From a virus, in IMG/VR virus record IMGVR_UViG_3300005531_000235, positions 1 to 27,392 of that record: DNA of 27,392 nt. One strand, written 5' to 3'. The notes under the pieces were generated by a model. The model made no database searches, had not been told where the DNA came from, and worked only from the letters and a program-made list of their open reading frames with translations. The position numbers and the translations under genes are program-made. Of the stretch, positions 2,891 through 20,849 are shown piece by piece; position 1 is the first letter of the stretch, and the number at the start of each line of letters is the position of its first letter.

Positions 2891-3847
2891 TCAATCCGCG
2901 ATGATATTTGCATCCTCGTTGCGGCTGCGCAGGTAATTGTCCCAGTCGCGTTCGAGCTCGGGTTTGTTCCCAGCCCATTCGATCACGCCAAAGGTGTTGC
3001 GCTTCAAGTCACGATAGGGGTCGAAGCCATGGCGCAGGAACATATCCCAGCGGCTGACATAGGCCCTGGATTTCTTCGAGCCGTGGAAATTGTGCTCGAT
3101 AATGCCTGGCACATAGCCAAGCTTTTTGTTGGCATGGGTTAGCGCGCGATGTTGCCAGGTTATCACGGCCTGCCGGTAGCTCGGCATAGTGCTGCCCGGC
3201 ATGGATTTCTCGGCGGCCCCTACAAGGCCGAGCGCCATGTGGTGATCGCCTGAGCCCATCCCGCCGAGTTCAAAGAGGCCGCCAATGCGGTCGAGAATGT
3301 CGCGGATCCAGGCCCAGGCAAAGCCGGAATGGGCATAAGTGTAGGGGCCACCGTCGAATGTCCAGAAATTCGGTCCCGCCGGCACAACCGGCTTGCCATC
3401 GTGGTAGAGGCTGCAGAAGCTCGTATGAACCTGGATGAGCGAATCATTCGGGCCGAGATCGAGCGCATTCTTCCACGGCTGGATTACCGGGTAGAGCTGT
3501 AATGCCTCAAGCGTCTCATAGGCCCATCCGGGCTTGCGGAAATGGATGTCGGCGTCAAACGTGCCAATATATTTGGCATTCTGCGGAAGCTGCGCGATAC
3601 CGATATTGAGCAGGCATTCCTTGTTCCAAGCTAATGTCGTCGCGCGCACCGGGATATGCGTCACGCGATCGGAAGCGAGATCAGCGAGCTCGTAAGGCCG
3701 CGCGCCGTAGGCGCATTCGACAACAGTCACGTGGACCTGCGGCTCATTGATCCAGTCGAGGATGGCGTTGATGGCGAGCCGCGTGCGGGACGCCCAGCGG
3801 ATCGGATTGGCGACAGCAGTGACGATGTGCAGCGTAGCATTCTTCAT
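2891..3847 (-). CDS. Phage-encoded GT-A type glycosyltransferase
   Basis: 318 aa, with AGAGG before the ATG. The N-terminal half is a GT-A nucleotide-sugar fold: LHIVTAVANPIRW start, NKECLLNIGIAQLP, and the metal-binding DAD motif in IGTFDADIHF (about 98-100). The second half has the acceptor-side motifs SGFAWAWIRDILDRIGGLFE and GMGSGDHHMALGL (about 184-210), followed by a phage-type tail (IEHNFHGSKKSRAYVSRW, FDPYRDL). There is no signal peptide or membrane segment, so it acts in the cytoplasm. Donor and acceptor are unknown; candidates are a surface sugar (receptor change, superinfection exclusion), a virion protein, or DNA. It ends at a strong terminator before the endolysin gene. Confidence 0.82.
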   Translation of the reverse strand: MKNATLHIVTAVANPIRWASRTRLAINAILDWINEPQVHVTVVECAYGARPYELADLASDRVTHIPVRATTLAWNKECLLNIGIAQLPQNAKYIGTFDADIHFRKPGWAYETLEALQLYPVIQPWKNALDLGPNDSLIQVHTSFCSLYHDGKPVVPAGPNFWTFDGGPYTYAHSGFAWAWIRDILDRIGGLFELGGMGSGDHHMALGLVGAAEKSMPGSTMPSYRQAVITWQHRALTHANKKLGYVPGIIEHNFHGSKKSRAYVSRWDMFLRHGFDPYRDLKRNTFGVIEWAGNKPELERDWDNYLRSRNEDANIIAD

Positions 3848-3855
3848 GCGGGCCT

Positions 3856-4185
3856 CTAATTGAGACGGCGGATGGAAACTGTGGCAACGCCTGGAAGGCG
3901 GATGGATCGTGCGGCGCCTTCGGACAGATCAAGGCAGCGGCCGGTCCCGCGTGCCGGGCCGCGATCATTGATCCGCACAACAACGCTGCGGCCTGCGTAG
4001 GTCACAAGAAGCCTGGTACCGAACGGATGTTTCCAGCTCGCGGCGGTCAACCCATGCGGATTGAACCGCTCGCCACTGGCGGTGAACAACTCGCTCTCGT
4101 ACCCATACCAGCTCGCGCGGCAGACCTCCGCATGGCTAGGCGCAAGCGCGCAGAGCCACGCAGCGAAACAGAACATCAATCTCAA
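3856..4185 (-). CDS. Exported RlpA-like double-psi beta-barrel protein
   Basis: 109 aa with a signal peptide (cleavage likely after PSHA, about residue 19) followed by a single RlpA-type double-psi beta barrel: CRASWYGYESELFTASGERF, PFGTRLLVTYAGRSVVVRIN, DRGPARGTGRCLDLS. RlpA proteins cut glycan strands lacking stem peptides. The conserved Glu (GERF, about Glu39) and Asp (INDRGP, about Asp74) are present. The usual His in LTAAH is Ser here (LTAAS), with a His four residues on, so activity is uncertain. The start may be TTG 4185 (gives a basic n-region) or ATG 4176; neither has a strong ribosome site. There is no SPOR domain. It is an extra wall-acting enzyme besides the endolysin, near the glycosyltransferase gene. 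Confidence 0.8.
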   Translation of the reverse strand: MRLMFCFAAWLCALAPSHAEVCRASWYGYESELFTASGERFNPHGLTAASWKHPFGTRLLVTYAGRSVVVRINDRGPARGTGRCLDLSEGAARSIRLPGVATVSIRRLN

Positions 4186-15913: not shown

Positions 15914-17170
15914 TCAGATGTTCTCAAGCTTTCTGAGCCCGAGATGCGTACCTGTGCGCACGCTCTCGTTTACCGTCCGCATGATTGTCTTGCCATGCGT
16001 CTGAAAAAATTGTCTTACACTTTGGGAATCCATGGCAGACACATTGAAGTTCAAGGCATGATGCACATGAACTGTTCCCCCGGCACCGCCACTGGACTCC
16101 ATTATGCTGCGAAACGCCCCCGCCGGACCGGCCGGAATAATCATTTCCCCTCGGTGGACCTGAGCAATCATATCATTTGGCAGGCTCCAGGCTCCGCTCG
16201 CGAAAGATGCAAGGCCTGCTCCAGCGCTCATCACCGCCGCTTCCGCACCTGCTGCAGGCCCGGCGGCGGCTGGCCCCATAACAGGCGCAAGGAATCCAAA
16301 GACACCAGCAAATGTCTCTCCGGCCGAAGCCATAATAGATTTCAAGACTGCGCTTATCGTGCCTGCCATAGACGCTGCTGAGGCTGACGTTTCGAGTCCG
16401 GTGCGCGCCGCAGTTCCGGCGGCGACTGCCGCCGTTCTGGAGGTCTCTCCGGCCTGTACCGCTGCCGTCTGAGCAGCAACAGCGGCCAGCCAGTCGGCAA
16501 CCATTTTCACATTCGCTTGTATGAATGACTGGAGGATCTGCAAGGATACATTCCTCGCTGCATCCCGAAGCTTCATATGCCCGGCAATCATCTCCATAAT
16601 CGATGACGATACGCTTGAACCTATCCTCTCGAATGTACGTCTGTAGTCACTGTCGAGTTGCTGGACTGCGCTTCGTTCGATTTCCAGCCTCCGGAGTGAG
16701 GATTGGCTTGTAAGTTCGTCTATTTGACGTTGAGCCGAGGCATAAGCAACAGTCCCTTGTTGATAAGTACCTCTCAAGAATTCCAGGTGTTGACGTTCAA
16801 TATTCTCACGCTGCGTTTCCAGAGCAAGAAGACCTGCAAGCTCTTCTTGGCGGGAAATCTGTGCCATCTGAGCCCGCTCCCTGATAATTGCAATTTGTTC
16901 TTTTAACTCATTTTGAGCTATATCATAGCGAGTCTGCTCGTTCTGCCGTGTAATTGCAAGTTCGGTGTCACTGGACGTCTGCGCCGTTGAGATCTTCCTC
17001 GCCGCATCGGTTGCATAGGATTGTGATAATGAAACAAAACTTGCATTAATCTGCGCGGCACCGCTGCGTAGGGTATTTGTTGTTGCCTCCACCGCACTTG
17101 TCGCCCGTTGCATTCCCTTTTGCAAGTCGGACACGTCGGCGGTGAAAGTAATGGACACATCGTCCGCCAT
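15914..17170 (-). CDS. Tail tape measure protein (short)
   Basis: The tape measure sets tail length and is ejected with DNA. The start is placed at ATG 17170 (MADDVSITFTADVSDLQKGM), which has AAGGA upstream; a more upstream ATG would add eight residues. The 418-aa product has an N-terminal ADVSDLQKGMQRA segment typical of tape measures, a long charged coiled-coil region (about 75-190: RQNEQTRYDIAQNELKEQ, RQEELAGLLALETQR), an Ala/Gly-rich hydrophobic middle (about 225-320) likely to cross membrane during infection, and the common C-terminal MIAQVHRGEMIIPAG motif. At about 1.5 Angstrom per residue it predicts a tail of only about 60 nm. Confidence 0.88.
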   Translation of the reverse strand: MADDVSITFTADVSDLQKGMQRATSAVEATTNTLRSGAAQINASFVSLSQSYATDAARKISTAQTSSDTELAITRQNEQTRYDIAQNELKEQIAIIRERAQMAQISRQEELAGLLALETQRENIERQHLEFLRGTYQQGTVAYASAQRQIDELTSQSSLRRLEIERSAVQQLDSDYRRTFERIGSSVSSSIMEMIAGHMKLRDAARNVSLQILQSFIQANVKMVADWLAAVAAQTAAVQAGETSRTAAVAAGTAARTGLETSASAASMAGTISAVLKSIMASAGETFAGVFGFLAPVMGPAAAGPAAGAEAAVMSAGAGLASFASGAWSLPNDMIAQVHRGEMIIPAGPAGAFRSIMESSGGAGGTVHVHHALNFNVSAMDSQSVRQFFQTHGKTIMRTVNESVRTGTHLGLRKLENI

Positions 17171-17240
17171 GTCTTTCCTTTCATAAAGCTTCAATCTACG
17201 TTAAACATTCATGTTTTTGAACAGCATGTATTTTTCCATG

Positions 17241-17546
17241 CTATAGGCCATCGGCAAGGCGAACAAACCCGCTTGGAAAACGAGCCATTAGTCCCCCTAT
17301 CCCGCTTGGATCCGACTTGCTATTTGCGATCTGCTCCGGTCTTTGCTCAATACGATACACACACTTTAAGATTTCATGTGTTGGAGGAAACTCACGCCAA
17401 TAGATAAAGAGGTTCAACACATCATACATTGTCATTTCATCGATCTGCGCGGGCGTGTACCCACAACTTGCCATAAGCCTCGCGTAGATGTAGCTAAAAT
17501 CTATGCGGGGAGATCCATTACGCGGAGCTCGCCCGCCTACACTTCC
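17241..17546 (-). CDS. Tail assembly chaperone, T-like extension reached by -1 frameshift
   Basis: This frame is open for 101 codons and lies -1 to the upstream chaperone gene. Its first ATG is at 17474, but 24 open codons before it read as plausible protein (PRIDFSYIYARL joins smoothly to MASCGYTPAQIDEMT), and no ATG, GTG or TTG with a ribosome site serves them. The core TPAQIDEMTMYDVLNLF...YWREFPPTHEIL resembles the short downstream partner of tail assembly chaperones. A shift at GGGGG would give a fusion of about 201 aa (100 residues from the first frame plus 101 here), parallel to lambda gpGT. Translation from ATG 17474 alone is the alternative, but it lacks a good ribosome site. Confidence 0.72.
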   Translation of the reverse strand, partial: GSVGGRAPRNGSPRIDFSYIYARLMASCGYTPAQIDEMTMYDVLNLFIYWREFPPTHEILKCVYRIEQRPEQIANSKSDPSGIGGLMARFPSGFVRLADGL

Positions 17547-17845
17547 CCCAGCCTGGCATCTCCACGCGTTGGCGCTTCAACAAAACCACCGAGGTGTAAG
17601 ACTGTAGCCATTGCGGCACCGATCTCCGGAGCCGTCGCCTCAATATCCCCAAGAGATGAAGCTTCATGGGGATGGTCGCGGCCCAACGCAATCGCAACAA
17701 TAGCGATTGCTGCTGCCACATTGCTTTTTGTCTCGTTGGCAGCCGACATAAGAATGGGTTCGATTTCCTGCACTTGGCGCAGCGTCAATGGACGGACAAG
17801 CCACTCATGCGTGCCAAGCCGTATCGTCTGAGATTGAGGGCGCAT
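17537..17845 (-). CDS. Tail assembly chaperone, G-like upstream frame
   Basis: 102 aa starting at ATG 17845, one base after the tail tube stop and with GGAGG ten bases upstream; a longer reading needs a TTG without such a site. The product (RLGTHEWLVRPLTLRQVQEI, then an Ala/Ile-rich helix and GDIEATAPEIGAAMATVL) has the size and helical character of lambda G-type chaperones, which coat the tape measure and recruit tube subunits without entering the virion. Shortly before its stop lies a run of five G (17545-17549), where a -1 shift would continue into the downstream frame (17241-17546). The function is inferred from position and this two-frame arrangement. Confidence 0.75.
   Translation of the reverse strand: MRPQSQTIRLGTHEWLVRPLTLRQVQEIEPILMSAANETKSNVAAAIAIVAIALGRDHPHEASSLGDIEATAPEIGAAMATVLHLGGFVEAPTRGDARLGEV
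17543..17563 (-). promoter_or_regulatory. Candidate -1 ribosomal frameshift site
   Basis: The zero-frame codons are CTG GGG GAA GTG TAG. The peptidyl tRNA on GGG can re-pair perfectly one base back because five G occur in a row (17545-17549). An internal Shine-Dalgarno-like GGAG (17560-17563) lies ten bases upstream, a spacing known to stimulate -1 shifting. Downstream, GCGG and CCGC could form a short stem. The site is not the canonical lambda GGGAAAG heptamer. Confidence 0.6.
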
Positions 17846-17846
17846 A

Positions 17847-18602
17847 TCAGGATGCCTCCGCAAACGACCAAGTCATTACATTACCCGCTGCGTCCGCAAA
17901 ACAAGAGAAATCGAATTCTGGCATGGTAAAATCTTCAAGCTTTGTGCCGAATGTTAGCTTATTAGATGTGCAATTGTTCAATTGCAGGGAAACGGCCTGC
18001 CCCTGGAATGTCGTATAGAATTTTGCCTTGAACGTCGGCGTTGTGCCAAGCAATTGGTTAGTAACCTGAATCTTCTGGCCAGAGCTAGAGATTGCATACG
18101 TATAACTAATTAGCACCTTGACACCTGCAAGGTTGTCGGCCGATGAGAAGGTGTAAACGCCTGTCGCTGTGTTGACAGTGTATTGTCCTGCGGCAGGATT
18201 CGCCGAAACAAGCTGCATAGGAATGCCGGTTTCCGCATTGATCACACCCGCATCGTCAACGTAGGTCGCGGAATTGGCGACAGTTATTTGGTATTGGCCA
18301 GACGATCCTGGAATTGCTGTCGGTCCCTCTGCGTATGAGGTTGCGATCTGACCAAGCTGTGGAGTAACTCCATAATACAAACTCGCAAAAGCTATTCCGG
18401 AAATTCGAGCCACCTTGGCTTTCCCCGTTGTCTTTATCGTGCCTCGCGCGATCGCCACAGGACGCTGATACTGACCGGTAAGCTCTTTGATCGTAGCGGT
18501 CTCCTCGATCGTGACCTCCTGTACAAGACCAAAGTTAACTGGCGTTGCGTTGGCAATATCTGTCCGTGTTCCGAGCAATACCCCAGAGCCGAAACTATAC
18601 AT
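17847..18602 (-). CDS. Major tail tube protein
   Basis: 251 aa, encoded directly before the tail assembly chaperone and tape measure, which is the standard slot for the tail tube subunit. It starts YSFGSGVLLGTRTD, has an early strand-helix region with VQEVTIEETATIKELTGQ (about 27-44), and ends with strands around KAKFYTTFQGQAVSLQL and FTMPEFDFSCFADAAGNV, typical of beta-sandwich tube proteins. Residues about 112-170 (DDAGVINAETG, PAAGQYTVN, VLISYTY) form a module closely matching one in the connector. A GAGGT site lies upstream of the ATG. The next gene starts one base after its stop. Confidence 0.87.
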   Translation of the reverse strand: MYSFGSGVLLGTRTDIANATPVNFGLVQEVTIEETATIKELTGQYQRPVAIARGTIKTTGKAKVARISGIAFASLYYGVTPQLGQIATSYAEGPTAIPGSSGQYQITVANSATYVDDAGVINAETGIPMQLVSANPAAGQYTVNTATGVYTFSSADNLAGVKVLISYTYAISSSGQKIQVTNQLLGTTPTFKAKFYTTFQGQAVSLQLNNCTSNKLTFGTKLEDFTMPEFDFSCFADAAGNVMTWSFAEAS

Positions 18603-19584: not shown

Positions 19585-20025
19585 CTATCGCAGCGCATCA
19601 ACAATAGCCTGCTTAAGATTGACCTTTATATCATCGCGCATTTCCTTAAGTGAGCTCGTAAGGTAAGAGCGTGCTTGGATTAGCGAACCTGGGTGATGGA
19701 CGTGTTTCGCGAAAACCTCATGCCCATTCAAGGCAAAAGCCAGCACCTTGGCATTCACTGCAATGATCTCATGAGCTGCGGTTTTTCCGCCGAATTCCTG
19801 AATCGCGGCATAGGGCACGCCGACGCTGGAAACAGTGACCGATAAGTCACTCTCCTCATTATCTACTGACGATACGATGGACTGCGCGAGAGCGCCTGAA
19901 CGGGGCTGAAGTACTGCGCCAGAAAGCTTTTGCTGTATCCGGGTCTCGAGAGCATTACGAAGAGCCTCCGCCTGATCCGATAGTGCATTTCGTACTGCCT
20001 CCACATCGAAGATCACCTCGATCAT
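19585..20025 (-). CDS. HK97 gp10-like head-tail joining / tail completion protein
   Basis: 146 aa with the HK97-gp10-like pattern: a helical N-terminus (VRNALSDQAEALRNALETRI), the family turn PRSGALAQSI (about 41-50), the conserved PYAAIQEFGG strand-turn (about 71-80), and the C-terminal RSYLTSSLKEMRDDI helix (about 118-132). Members act at the neck or tail-completion stage between connector and tail tube. The start overlaps the connector stop by four bases. The assignment rests on motifs plus position and is fairly secure. Confidence 0.85.
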   Translation of the reverse strand: MIEVIFDVEAVRNALSDQAEALRNALETRIQQKLSGAVLQPRSGALAQSIVSSVDNEESDLSVTVSSVGVPYAAIQEFGGKTAAHEIIAVNAKVLAFALNGHEVFAKHVHHPGSLIQARSYLTSSLKEMRDDIKVNLKQAIVDALR

Positions 20026-20849
20026 GGCGTAATTAGCCTCCGGTAAGGCCCAAGGGTACTCGCAACGTAATCTGGAATATCCTTAACGATGAAACCAATG
20101 CTCTCTTGCCCGCCGAGCGACTTCGAGCGCTGTCCTATACGTGAGCGATAGGCATATCGTTCTGCCACCCAATCCGTACAGCAAGACGCGAGATCGGCTG
20201 GCACATAGCCATAACTAATGAGAACGGTTGCTCCTGCATCAGCTTGAGAAAAATTATAAATACCATTTGTTACCGCGTATTGCCCGGCCGCGGGAACGCC
20301 TGCAACCATTTCTAGCGCAACTTCGTTTGAGTAAGTGACGCCAGCATCACTGCCCCAATCACCGTAAGGAGCCTCCACGGGAACGCTGTAAGGAGGGTTC
20401 AAAGGGATCACTGCACTTTCGTTCGCAATCTGGTATCCGGCCCGATAGGAAATCGTGACGTTCTGCACACCGCATGCAAATAGATAGCGGCGTAAAGACA
20501 GTCTCTGCATGGCTCCAGGCGGGGTACCGCCAGATGTCTCTAGAACATAACCGGCCTGAGCGCTCGCACCCACGGTTAGAGAAGGTGAAGGCGGGATGGA
20601 GATACCGTTTATTACGCAAGAGGAGATCTCAATGACCGGCCATTGTTTAAGTACAATTGAAAAATCATTTCCACCATCACGTACTTCGACATAGTCCGCC
20701 GGCAAGATCGCTGGCCTATCAATAAAACTTAGTATTGCCCGGCTAATTTGCGTGATCATCTGAGCAAGAAGAACATCATCATCGGTGCCCGAAATATCGA
20801 GCCAGGACTTCACATCAGAGAGGCTAATGAGATCAAAGGGAGAGGCCAT
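20022..20849 (-). CDS. Head-tail connector, gp6-like, with inserted beta domain
   Basis: The 275-aa protein has the start and end of the HK97 gp6-like head-tail connector family (adaptor ring below the portal). Residues 8-48 (LSDVKSWLDISGTDDDVLL...) form the first helical hairpin, about 49-145 carry a strand-rich part, and the C-terminus (DLASCCTDWVAERYAYRSRIGQ, about 219-240, then VKDIPDYVASTLGPYRRL) closes the helical core. Between these, about 160-216, is an extra module (DAGVTYS, PAAGQYAVTNG, VLISYGY) that also occurs in the major tail protein nearby. Its stop overlaps the next start by four bases (ATGA), so the two are probably translationally coupled. Confidence 0.85.
   Translation of the reverse strand: MASPFDLISLSDVKSWLDISGTDDDVLLAQMITQISRAILSFIDRPAILPADYVEVRDGGNDFSIVLKQWPVIEISSCVINGISIPPSPSLTVGASAQAGYVLETSGGTPPGAMQRLSLRRYLFACGVQNVTISYRAGYQIANESAVIPLNPPYSVPVEAPYGDWGSDAGVTYSNEVALEMVAGVPAAGQYAVTNGIYNFSQADAGATVLISYGYVPADLASCCTDWVAERYAYRSRIGQRSKSLGGQESIGFIVKDIPDYVASTLGPYRRLITP

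Follow-up and report, generated by a model that had tools for sequence, protein, structure and literature searches.

The window, meaning the whole 27,392-base stretch of an IMG/VR virus record that was analysed and that has been described as coming from a phage of a soil bacterium, carries its morphogenesis genes on the minus strand. They run in the order connector and neck proteins, tail tube, a pair of reading frames here called G and T, tape measure and further tail genes, the last including a GTA TIM-barrel/DUF2460 protein; from the ORF translations we also take the terminase, portal and head proteins to be present. The features that matter for the G/T pair are the following:

17847..18602, minus strand: putative major tail (tube) protein, directly 5' of G; phrog_8234, E 7.7e-59 (function not given).
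17537..17845, minus strand: G, putative tail assembly chaperone, zero-frame ORF of 102 aa, from direct reading of the frames and homologues.
17845 (ATG start) and 17539-17537 (TAG stop), minus strand: limits of G, from direct reading.
17560..17563, minus strand: GGAG, resembling a Shine-Dalgarno sequence, ten bases ahead of the heptamer, from group statistics.
17543..17549, minus strand: putative slip heptamer GGGGGAA, read G_GGG_GAA, with the same sequence and phase in relatives.
17549-17545, minus strand: run of five Gs, from direct reading.
17241..17543, minus strand: T, predicted -1-frame extension after the slip, 100 aa, beginning SVGGRAPRNGSPRIDFSYIYARL, from frame reading and homologues.
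17505..17536, minus strand: predicted hairpin 6 nt past the heptamer, GCGGG(C)GAG...CTCCCCGC, in which one C is bulged, from folding and covariation in 52 relatives.
15914..17194, minus strand: tail tape-measure protein, directly 3' of T; phrog_2854 tail length tape measure protein, E 5.3e-20.

The product of 17847..18602 also matches phrog_2729, a virion structural protein, at E 6e-5, and its place in the gene order suggests that it is the tube protein. Residues 157-216 of the head-tail adaptor (20022-20849, minus strand) match the same family as the tube protein, phrog_8234, at E 3.8e-11, an insert of about 60 aa being common to these two different structural proteins. The tape-measure protein is short, with 426 aa from TTG 17194, which suggests a short tail. 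Elsewhere in the window, positions 3856-4185 (minus strand) hold what we take to be a small RlpA-like (double-psi beta-barrel) frame, and the ORF beside it at 2891-3847 (minus strand) is presumably glycosyltransferase-like.

At the end of G the zero-frame codons read CTG GGG GAA GTG TAG, the -1 frame is open from 17576 to 17241, and a slip after GAA would give a fusion of 101 + 100 = 201 residues. A sequence-only reading of this DNA had proposed a tail assembly chaperone made by -1 frameshifting, with products of 102 and about 201 aa, a GGGGG run at 17545-17549 close to the zero-frame stop, GGAG ten bases ahead of that run, and a downstream frame that is -1 to the upstream gene; every coordinate checked agrees with direct reading, and so do both product lengths. 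Its statement that the downstream frame is open for 24 codons before its first ATG needs amending, as the frame is indeed open ahead of ATG 17474, but for about 34 codons, 24 being the count from the G run.

Frameshifting into the -1 frame is classical in tail chaperone genes. Tail assembly chaperones of the lambda G/GT type are made by -1 programmed frameshifting, as Xu, Hendrix and Duda reportedly described in 2004. The frameshifting of lambda G/GT-type chaperones is also treated in a review (PMC5009743). As in lambda, the pair studied here sits between the tube and tape-measure genes and consists of a short zero-frame product and a -1 extension; the same placement is found in the record of Brevundimonas phage Strzyga, and in Acinetobacter phage 5W one extra gene intervenes in the order. 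Where lambda has GGGAAAG, it has GGGGGAA at the junction; also unlike lambda G/GT, it matches no named Pfam family and, in the window's group, is flanked by a Shine-Dalgarno-like element and a hairpin.

In total, 290 loci including the window were examined, 266 with both parts, 15 with one and 9 with neither; 92 of the 266 were left out as identical over the compared stretch, which leaves 174 distinct loci. A search with the tail tube protein gave 59 IMG/VR loci, and a search with the T alignment gave 49 viral loci, many of them on contigs already found, together with 10 loci in genomes of Methylocapsa, Methylocella, Beijerinckia, Methylobacterium and other Beijerinckiaceae/Hyphomicrobiales, prophage regions of Methylocella tundrae and Methylobacterium tarhaniae being among them. 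Tube homologues at about 35% identity were present in annotated phages of Pseudomonas (KT1), Acinetobacter (5W, vB_AbaSI_5, MD-2021a) and Brevundimonas (Strzyga, Polewnik), and the tube proteins of KT1, 5W and Strzyga led to 58, 80 and 22 further viral loci, respectively. T was matched in 2 of 397 sampled genomes from the order of genome G001, so genomes are not a richer source of relatives. Searches of the phages collection gave no match with G and, with T, matches at E 0.9 and worse only, one of which, the hit H11 in Pseudomonas phage KT1, turned out to be the real T homologue. Protein identity among the relatives goes down to about 20-35%. The group counts used below (window group 52, KT1 group 27, Strzyga group 11, 5W group 19) are of non-redundant loci with GGGGGAA only and are therefore a measure of the flanking signals but none of the heptamer.

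The window's own G and T matched no Pfam family, which speaks against a chaperone assignment, and Pfam searches with 42 G and 43 T members returned no tail-chaperone family. In PHROG, family 7947 was matched by G of 5W (E 1e-53) and of KT1 (E 2e-25) and family 8018 by T of 5W (E 1e-43), both families being labelled 'unknown function'; the window group matched them weakly, with 13 of 42 G members (7947) and 30 of 43 T members (8018) at E <= 0.1. The AlphaFold model of G (mean pLDDT 83.5) suggests a likeness to the N15 tail assembly protein GT, its closest match in BFVD (prob 1.00, TMq 0.63, with a weak E of 0.014), and several of the best 25 BFVD matches carry the name tail assembly chaperone or pre-tape-measure frameshift protein; a Foldseek search of the same model against the PDB gave no match at E <= 0.001. 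The model of T reached a mean pLDDT of 77 and a pTM of 0.48, and nothing significant was found for it in BFVD with Foldseek.

In the overlap of the two open frames, 167 of the 174 distinct loci and 66 of 71 representatives (clustering at 80% identity over 105 nt) have GGGGGAA, phased as G_GGG_GAA, so the G run singled out from the window alone is conserved. The heptamer by itself proves little, since the 27.4-kb window contains 3 copies against 3.67 expected by chance, and it is the conservation in relatives that carries the evidence. Among 60 window-group sequences, selected for the heptamer, all seven of its positions reach 2.0 bits and most neighbouring positions stay below 1 bit. In the 52 window-group loci the codon before GGG specifies any of eight amino acids (L, V, P, S, T, M, Q or A) and its third base is always G; in the same genes NNG makes up 35% of codons, GGG 15% of glycine codons and GAA 40% of glutamate codons. 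Constraint on the zero-frame protein does not explain this invariable G ahead of GGG.

The seven departures among the 174 loci count against the site. They are GGGGGAG in three loci (L125, L266, L289), GGGGGGA in L035, GGGGAAA in L218, a broken frame with four Gs in L203, and L281, which has no G run. At the homologous place L281 seems, by eye and with codons partly inferred, to read P-A-E-N against P-G-E, and its site is perhaps GGAAAAC, of the 'twofour' type named in PRFect. Within the 5W group, L203, L218, L216 and L245 show a shortened G run, a G-to-A change, or a truncated G followed by unrelated sequence, and are likely decaying or recombined tail modules. The 15 partial loci, more divergent and read by eye, have GGGGGAA at the junction in eight cases (L026, L049, L054, L055, L182, L267, L285, L287), GGGGGGA in L277 and GGGAAAC in L181; the other five (L110, L155, L216, L245, L283) have no assigned junction site. 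GGGGGGA (L035, L277) and GGGAAAC (L181) are X_XXY_YYZ heptamers and the sole canonical forms among the loci, and their substitution at the same place in relatives argues strongly for GGGGGAA as the slip site. The GGGGGAG of three loci is likewise a replacement that stays slippery. The canonical pattern, with re-pairing in both the P and A sites, is absent from the window and the 166 other loci with G_GGG_GAA, and the sequence-only reading was right that only the P-site tRNA can re-pair fully; what stands at the junction of this tail chaperone pair is instead five identical bases followed by two, the 'fivetwo' pattern of PRFect.

T lies in the -1 frame of G in 173 of the 174 distinct loci, the window among them, the exception being L203. 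The strongest competitor of a frameshift is that G and T are separate genes and that reinitiation or translational coupling starts T at a codon of its own, such as ATG 17474, with the G run serving as a Shine-Dalgarno sequence. In their deposited records, Acinetobacter phages 5W, vB_AbaSI_5 and MD-2021a and the Brevundimonas phages do have two CDS annotated, and most members have a Met in the motif ARLMxxCGY. This Met is not conserved, however (ARLI in L050, GRLA in L039 and L045, GRIC in L047), and a start there would cut off the conserved block IDFxxIYARL. From the site to the conserved YxR motif, the -1 frame holds no ATG, GTG or TTG in 45/52 loci of the window group, 27/27 of the KT1 group, 11/11 of the Strzyga group and 16/19 of the 5W group, and separate genes would leave both the fixed phase of GGGGGAA and the invariable preceding G unexplained. 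The deposited two-CDS annotations begin T within the conserved block (in 5W at GTG 4607 of L124), and PHROG 8018 begins at residue 11 of the T domain of 5W, apparently because annotation started T inside that block. We consider an independently started T very improbable. Neither of the findings that the sequence-only reading had named as fatal to frameshifting, a start of T's own in the homologues or a G run that is not conserved, turned up.

The flanking signals differ among the groups. With expected counts taken from phase-matched windows within the same genes, a Shine-Dalgarno-type tetramer at -16..-7 is present in 37/52 window-group loci (5.4 expected), 12/27 KT1-group loci (2.0 expected), 3/11 Strzyga-group loci (1.4 expected) and 0/19 5W-group loci (0.1 expected). 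In the window the 10 nt between GGAG and the heptamer fall within the spacing of 9-14 nt given for -1 shifts (PMC5009743). On the 3' side, the 45 nt that begin 3 nt past the heptamer fold with a mean z of -2.64 in the window group, and six windows flanking them range from -0.57 to +0.09. The mean z is -2.26 in the KT1 group, in which two windows on the 3' side are structured as well (-3.42, -1.67), -1.53 in the Strzyga group and +0.87 in the 5W group. An alignment-free count of uninterrupted helices of at least 6 bp starting 4-8 nt past the heptamer found them in 49/52 window-group loci (17.4 expected), 27/27 KT1-group loci (6.7), 7/11 Strzyga-group loci (3.6) and 0/19 5W-group loci (4.6). In the KT1 group (L123 and relatives) a strongly folded stretch lies 60-105 nt 3' of the slip site (mean z -3.42, 26 loci) and is possibly a second structure or a pseudoknot partner.

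A first hairpin count (alignment A3) took in 36 of the 52 window-group loci and omitted 16 with divergent or shorter stems; this omission favours structure, and the count was therefore redone on all 52 (A4) alongside the alignment-free test. In A4 a seven-pair helix has 93.5% of its cells paired, a percentage flattered in comparison with slid versions by the drawing of the structure from the same consensus, and 19 double-change cells against 4.1 in shuffled data. The covariation score is 0.192 against 0.111 when shuffled (reached by 0/500 shuffles) and at most 0.108 when slid. For the statistic 'pairs with a change on both sides', 51/500 shuffles did as well in A3, which is not significant, and 8/500 in A4. 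The hairpin of the window itself has a folding energy of -18.4 kcal/mol (z -3.53, 0/200 shuffles as good), and the segment 17495-17539 folds with z -2.20. Its helix is interrupted by the bulged C, which counts against it, and L002, the near-identical relative that stands for the window, is among the 3/52 loci lacking an uninterrupted 6-bp helix. A search of 17300-17900 against Rfam gave no match. The signal as first described from the window, a G run and GGAG, holds, and the covarying 3' hairpin had been missed.

Judged from these alignments, the window group has a three-part signal resembling that of E. coli dnaX, in which a Shine-Dalgarno-like element lies 5' and a stem-loop 3' of the slip site; unlike the site proposed here, the A_AAA_AAG of dnaX re-pairs fully in the A site, and its frameshift product is the shorter, not the longer, one (PMC5009743). 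The Acinetobacter 5W-like group retains the heptamer alone, placed directly before the stop codon, and its 19 non-redundant loci, with neither tetramer (0/19) nor hairpin (0/19), count against the frameshift explanation. In L124 and its relatives the codon that directly follows the heptamer is TAG or TAA.

A homopolymer run at the junction could also point to transcriptional slippage, in which RNA polymerase adds or drops a G and some mRNAs encode the fusion in a single frame, with nearly the same final protein. Five Gs are short for polymerase slippage, and in L181 the run is replaced by GGGAAAC; this replacement, together with the conserved Shine-Dalgarno-like element and 3' hairpin at ribosome-scale spacing, argues for the ribosome rather than the polymerase and makes slippage during transcription highly unlikely. 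A sequencing or assembly indel, or decay of the gene, might also put T out of frame, and the four Gs of L203 and the truncated G genes of L216 and L245 are examples of such changes among relatives; this reading is refuted by the same -1 relation in 173/174 distinct loci, complete phage genome records among them, and has next to no probability left.

Programmed -1 frameshifting accords with the reading frames, the absent starts, the conserved heptamer and its phase, the upstream element and the hairpin, all of which are directly visible in these loci, and on comparative sequence grounds the locus is very probably a tail assembly chaperone gene from which, as with lambda G/GT, two products are read. 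As to whether and how often ribosomes shift, how the tRNAs behave and what the chaperones do, we infer the following course. Most ribosomes would read the 102-codon G frame and terminate at TAG 17539-17537. A smaller share would be held up by the hairpin 6 nt further on, and perhaps also by base pairing between GGAG and the anti-Shine-Dalgarno sequence of the ribosome, and would slip back one base on G_GGG_GAA and continue in the -1 frame to give the 201-residue G-T fusion. The pause would find tRNA-Gly on GGG and tRNA-Glu on or entering GAA; after both move back by one base, tRNA-Gly would re-pair perfectly on GGG in the P site, and tRNA-Glu would sit on GGA in the A site with a G:U middle pair or be exchanged. 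Alternatively, the shift may precede A-site decoding, GGA then being read as glycine. Apart from L281 and L181, every departing locus retains G_GGG, which would be consistent with the P site playing the main part. By analogy with lambda, the role of G would be to coat the tape-measure protein and that of the T part to bring in subunits of the tail tube.

Both a frameshifted tail chaperone and GGGGGAA as its site are already known, and what is added here is their probable occurrence in this proteobacterial phage family; the motif has been reported from actinobacteriophages and from corynephage phi16. PRFect describes GGGGGAA as the 'fivetwo' motif of tail assembly chaperones in SEA-PHAGES genomes, with about a thousand cases, all GGGGGAA, and its authors remark on G:U pairing of the second tRNA (PMC10885494). 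The heptamer and the type of gene are identical to those found here; those cases are annotated and not tested, and come from actinobacteriophages (PMC10885494), whereas the present loci belong to proteobacterial phages and add comparative support for the site, a 5' element and a 3' hairpin. For phi16, gp14A has a predicted -1 site in the tail assembly genes with an internal Shine-Dalgarno GAGG, GGGGGAA and a 3' structure, in that case a single genome with a predicted H-type pseudoknot (PMC5506516). That the site is non-canonical had been recognised from the window; that GGGGGAA is a slip motif reported for phage tail-chaperone genes (PMC10885494; PMC5506516) had been overlooked. Caulobacter phages phiCbK/Colossus and Burkholderia phage KL1 have a -1 site ahead of the tape-measure gene, and the site predicted in Colossus and KL1, GGGAAAC, is the motif of the relative L181; these are canonical heptamers, unlike the one in the window (PMC3556154; PMC3483164). 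Among the literature matches listed, which covered few subscription papers, no report for this proteobacterial phage family was recognised.

GGGGGAA is notable as a site because its A-site tRNA cannot re-pair cognately. According to Sharma et al. (PMC4066793), the most efficient bacterial motifs permit cognate re-pairing in the A site, and under that rule GGGGGAA counts against frameshifting; the systematic E. coli assay described there covered Z_ZZN tetramers and X_XXZ_ZZN heptamers only, so GGGGGAA lies outside the measured motifs. We tentatively suggest, at somewhat less than even confidence, that GGGGGAA stands apart as its own class of -1 slip site in bacteria, maintained by selection in proteobacterial phages. 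Re-pairing at such a site would be confined to tRNA-Gly in the P site, and the tRNA in the A site would not pair cognately after the shift. A single substitution would turn it into the textbook GGGGGGA, and its retention perhaps sets a low, fixed ratio of G to GT.

With this analysis PHROG families 7947 and 8018, both catalogued without a function, are given a proposed one, and T appears to have been annotated from the wrong start in Acinetobacter 5W and other phages. The comparative evidence across alpha- and gammaproteobacterial phages suggests that the noncanonical GGGGGAA is itself under selection, and since relatives carry GGGGGGA or GGGAAAC in its place, it lends itself to a direct test. 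If true, a GGGGGAA slip class would run against the rule drawn from the E. coli assays.
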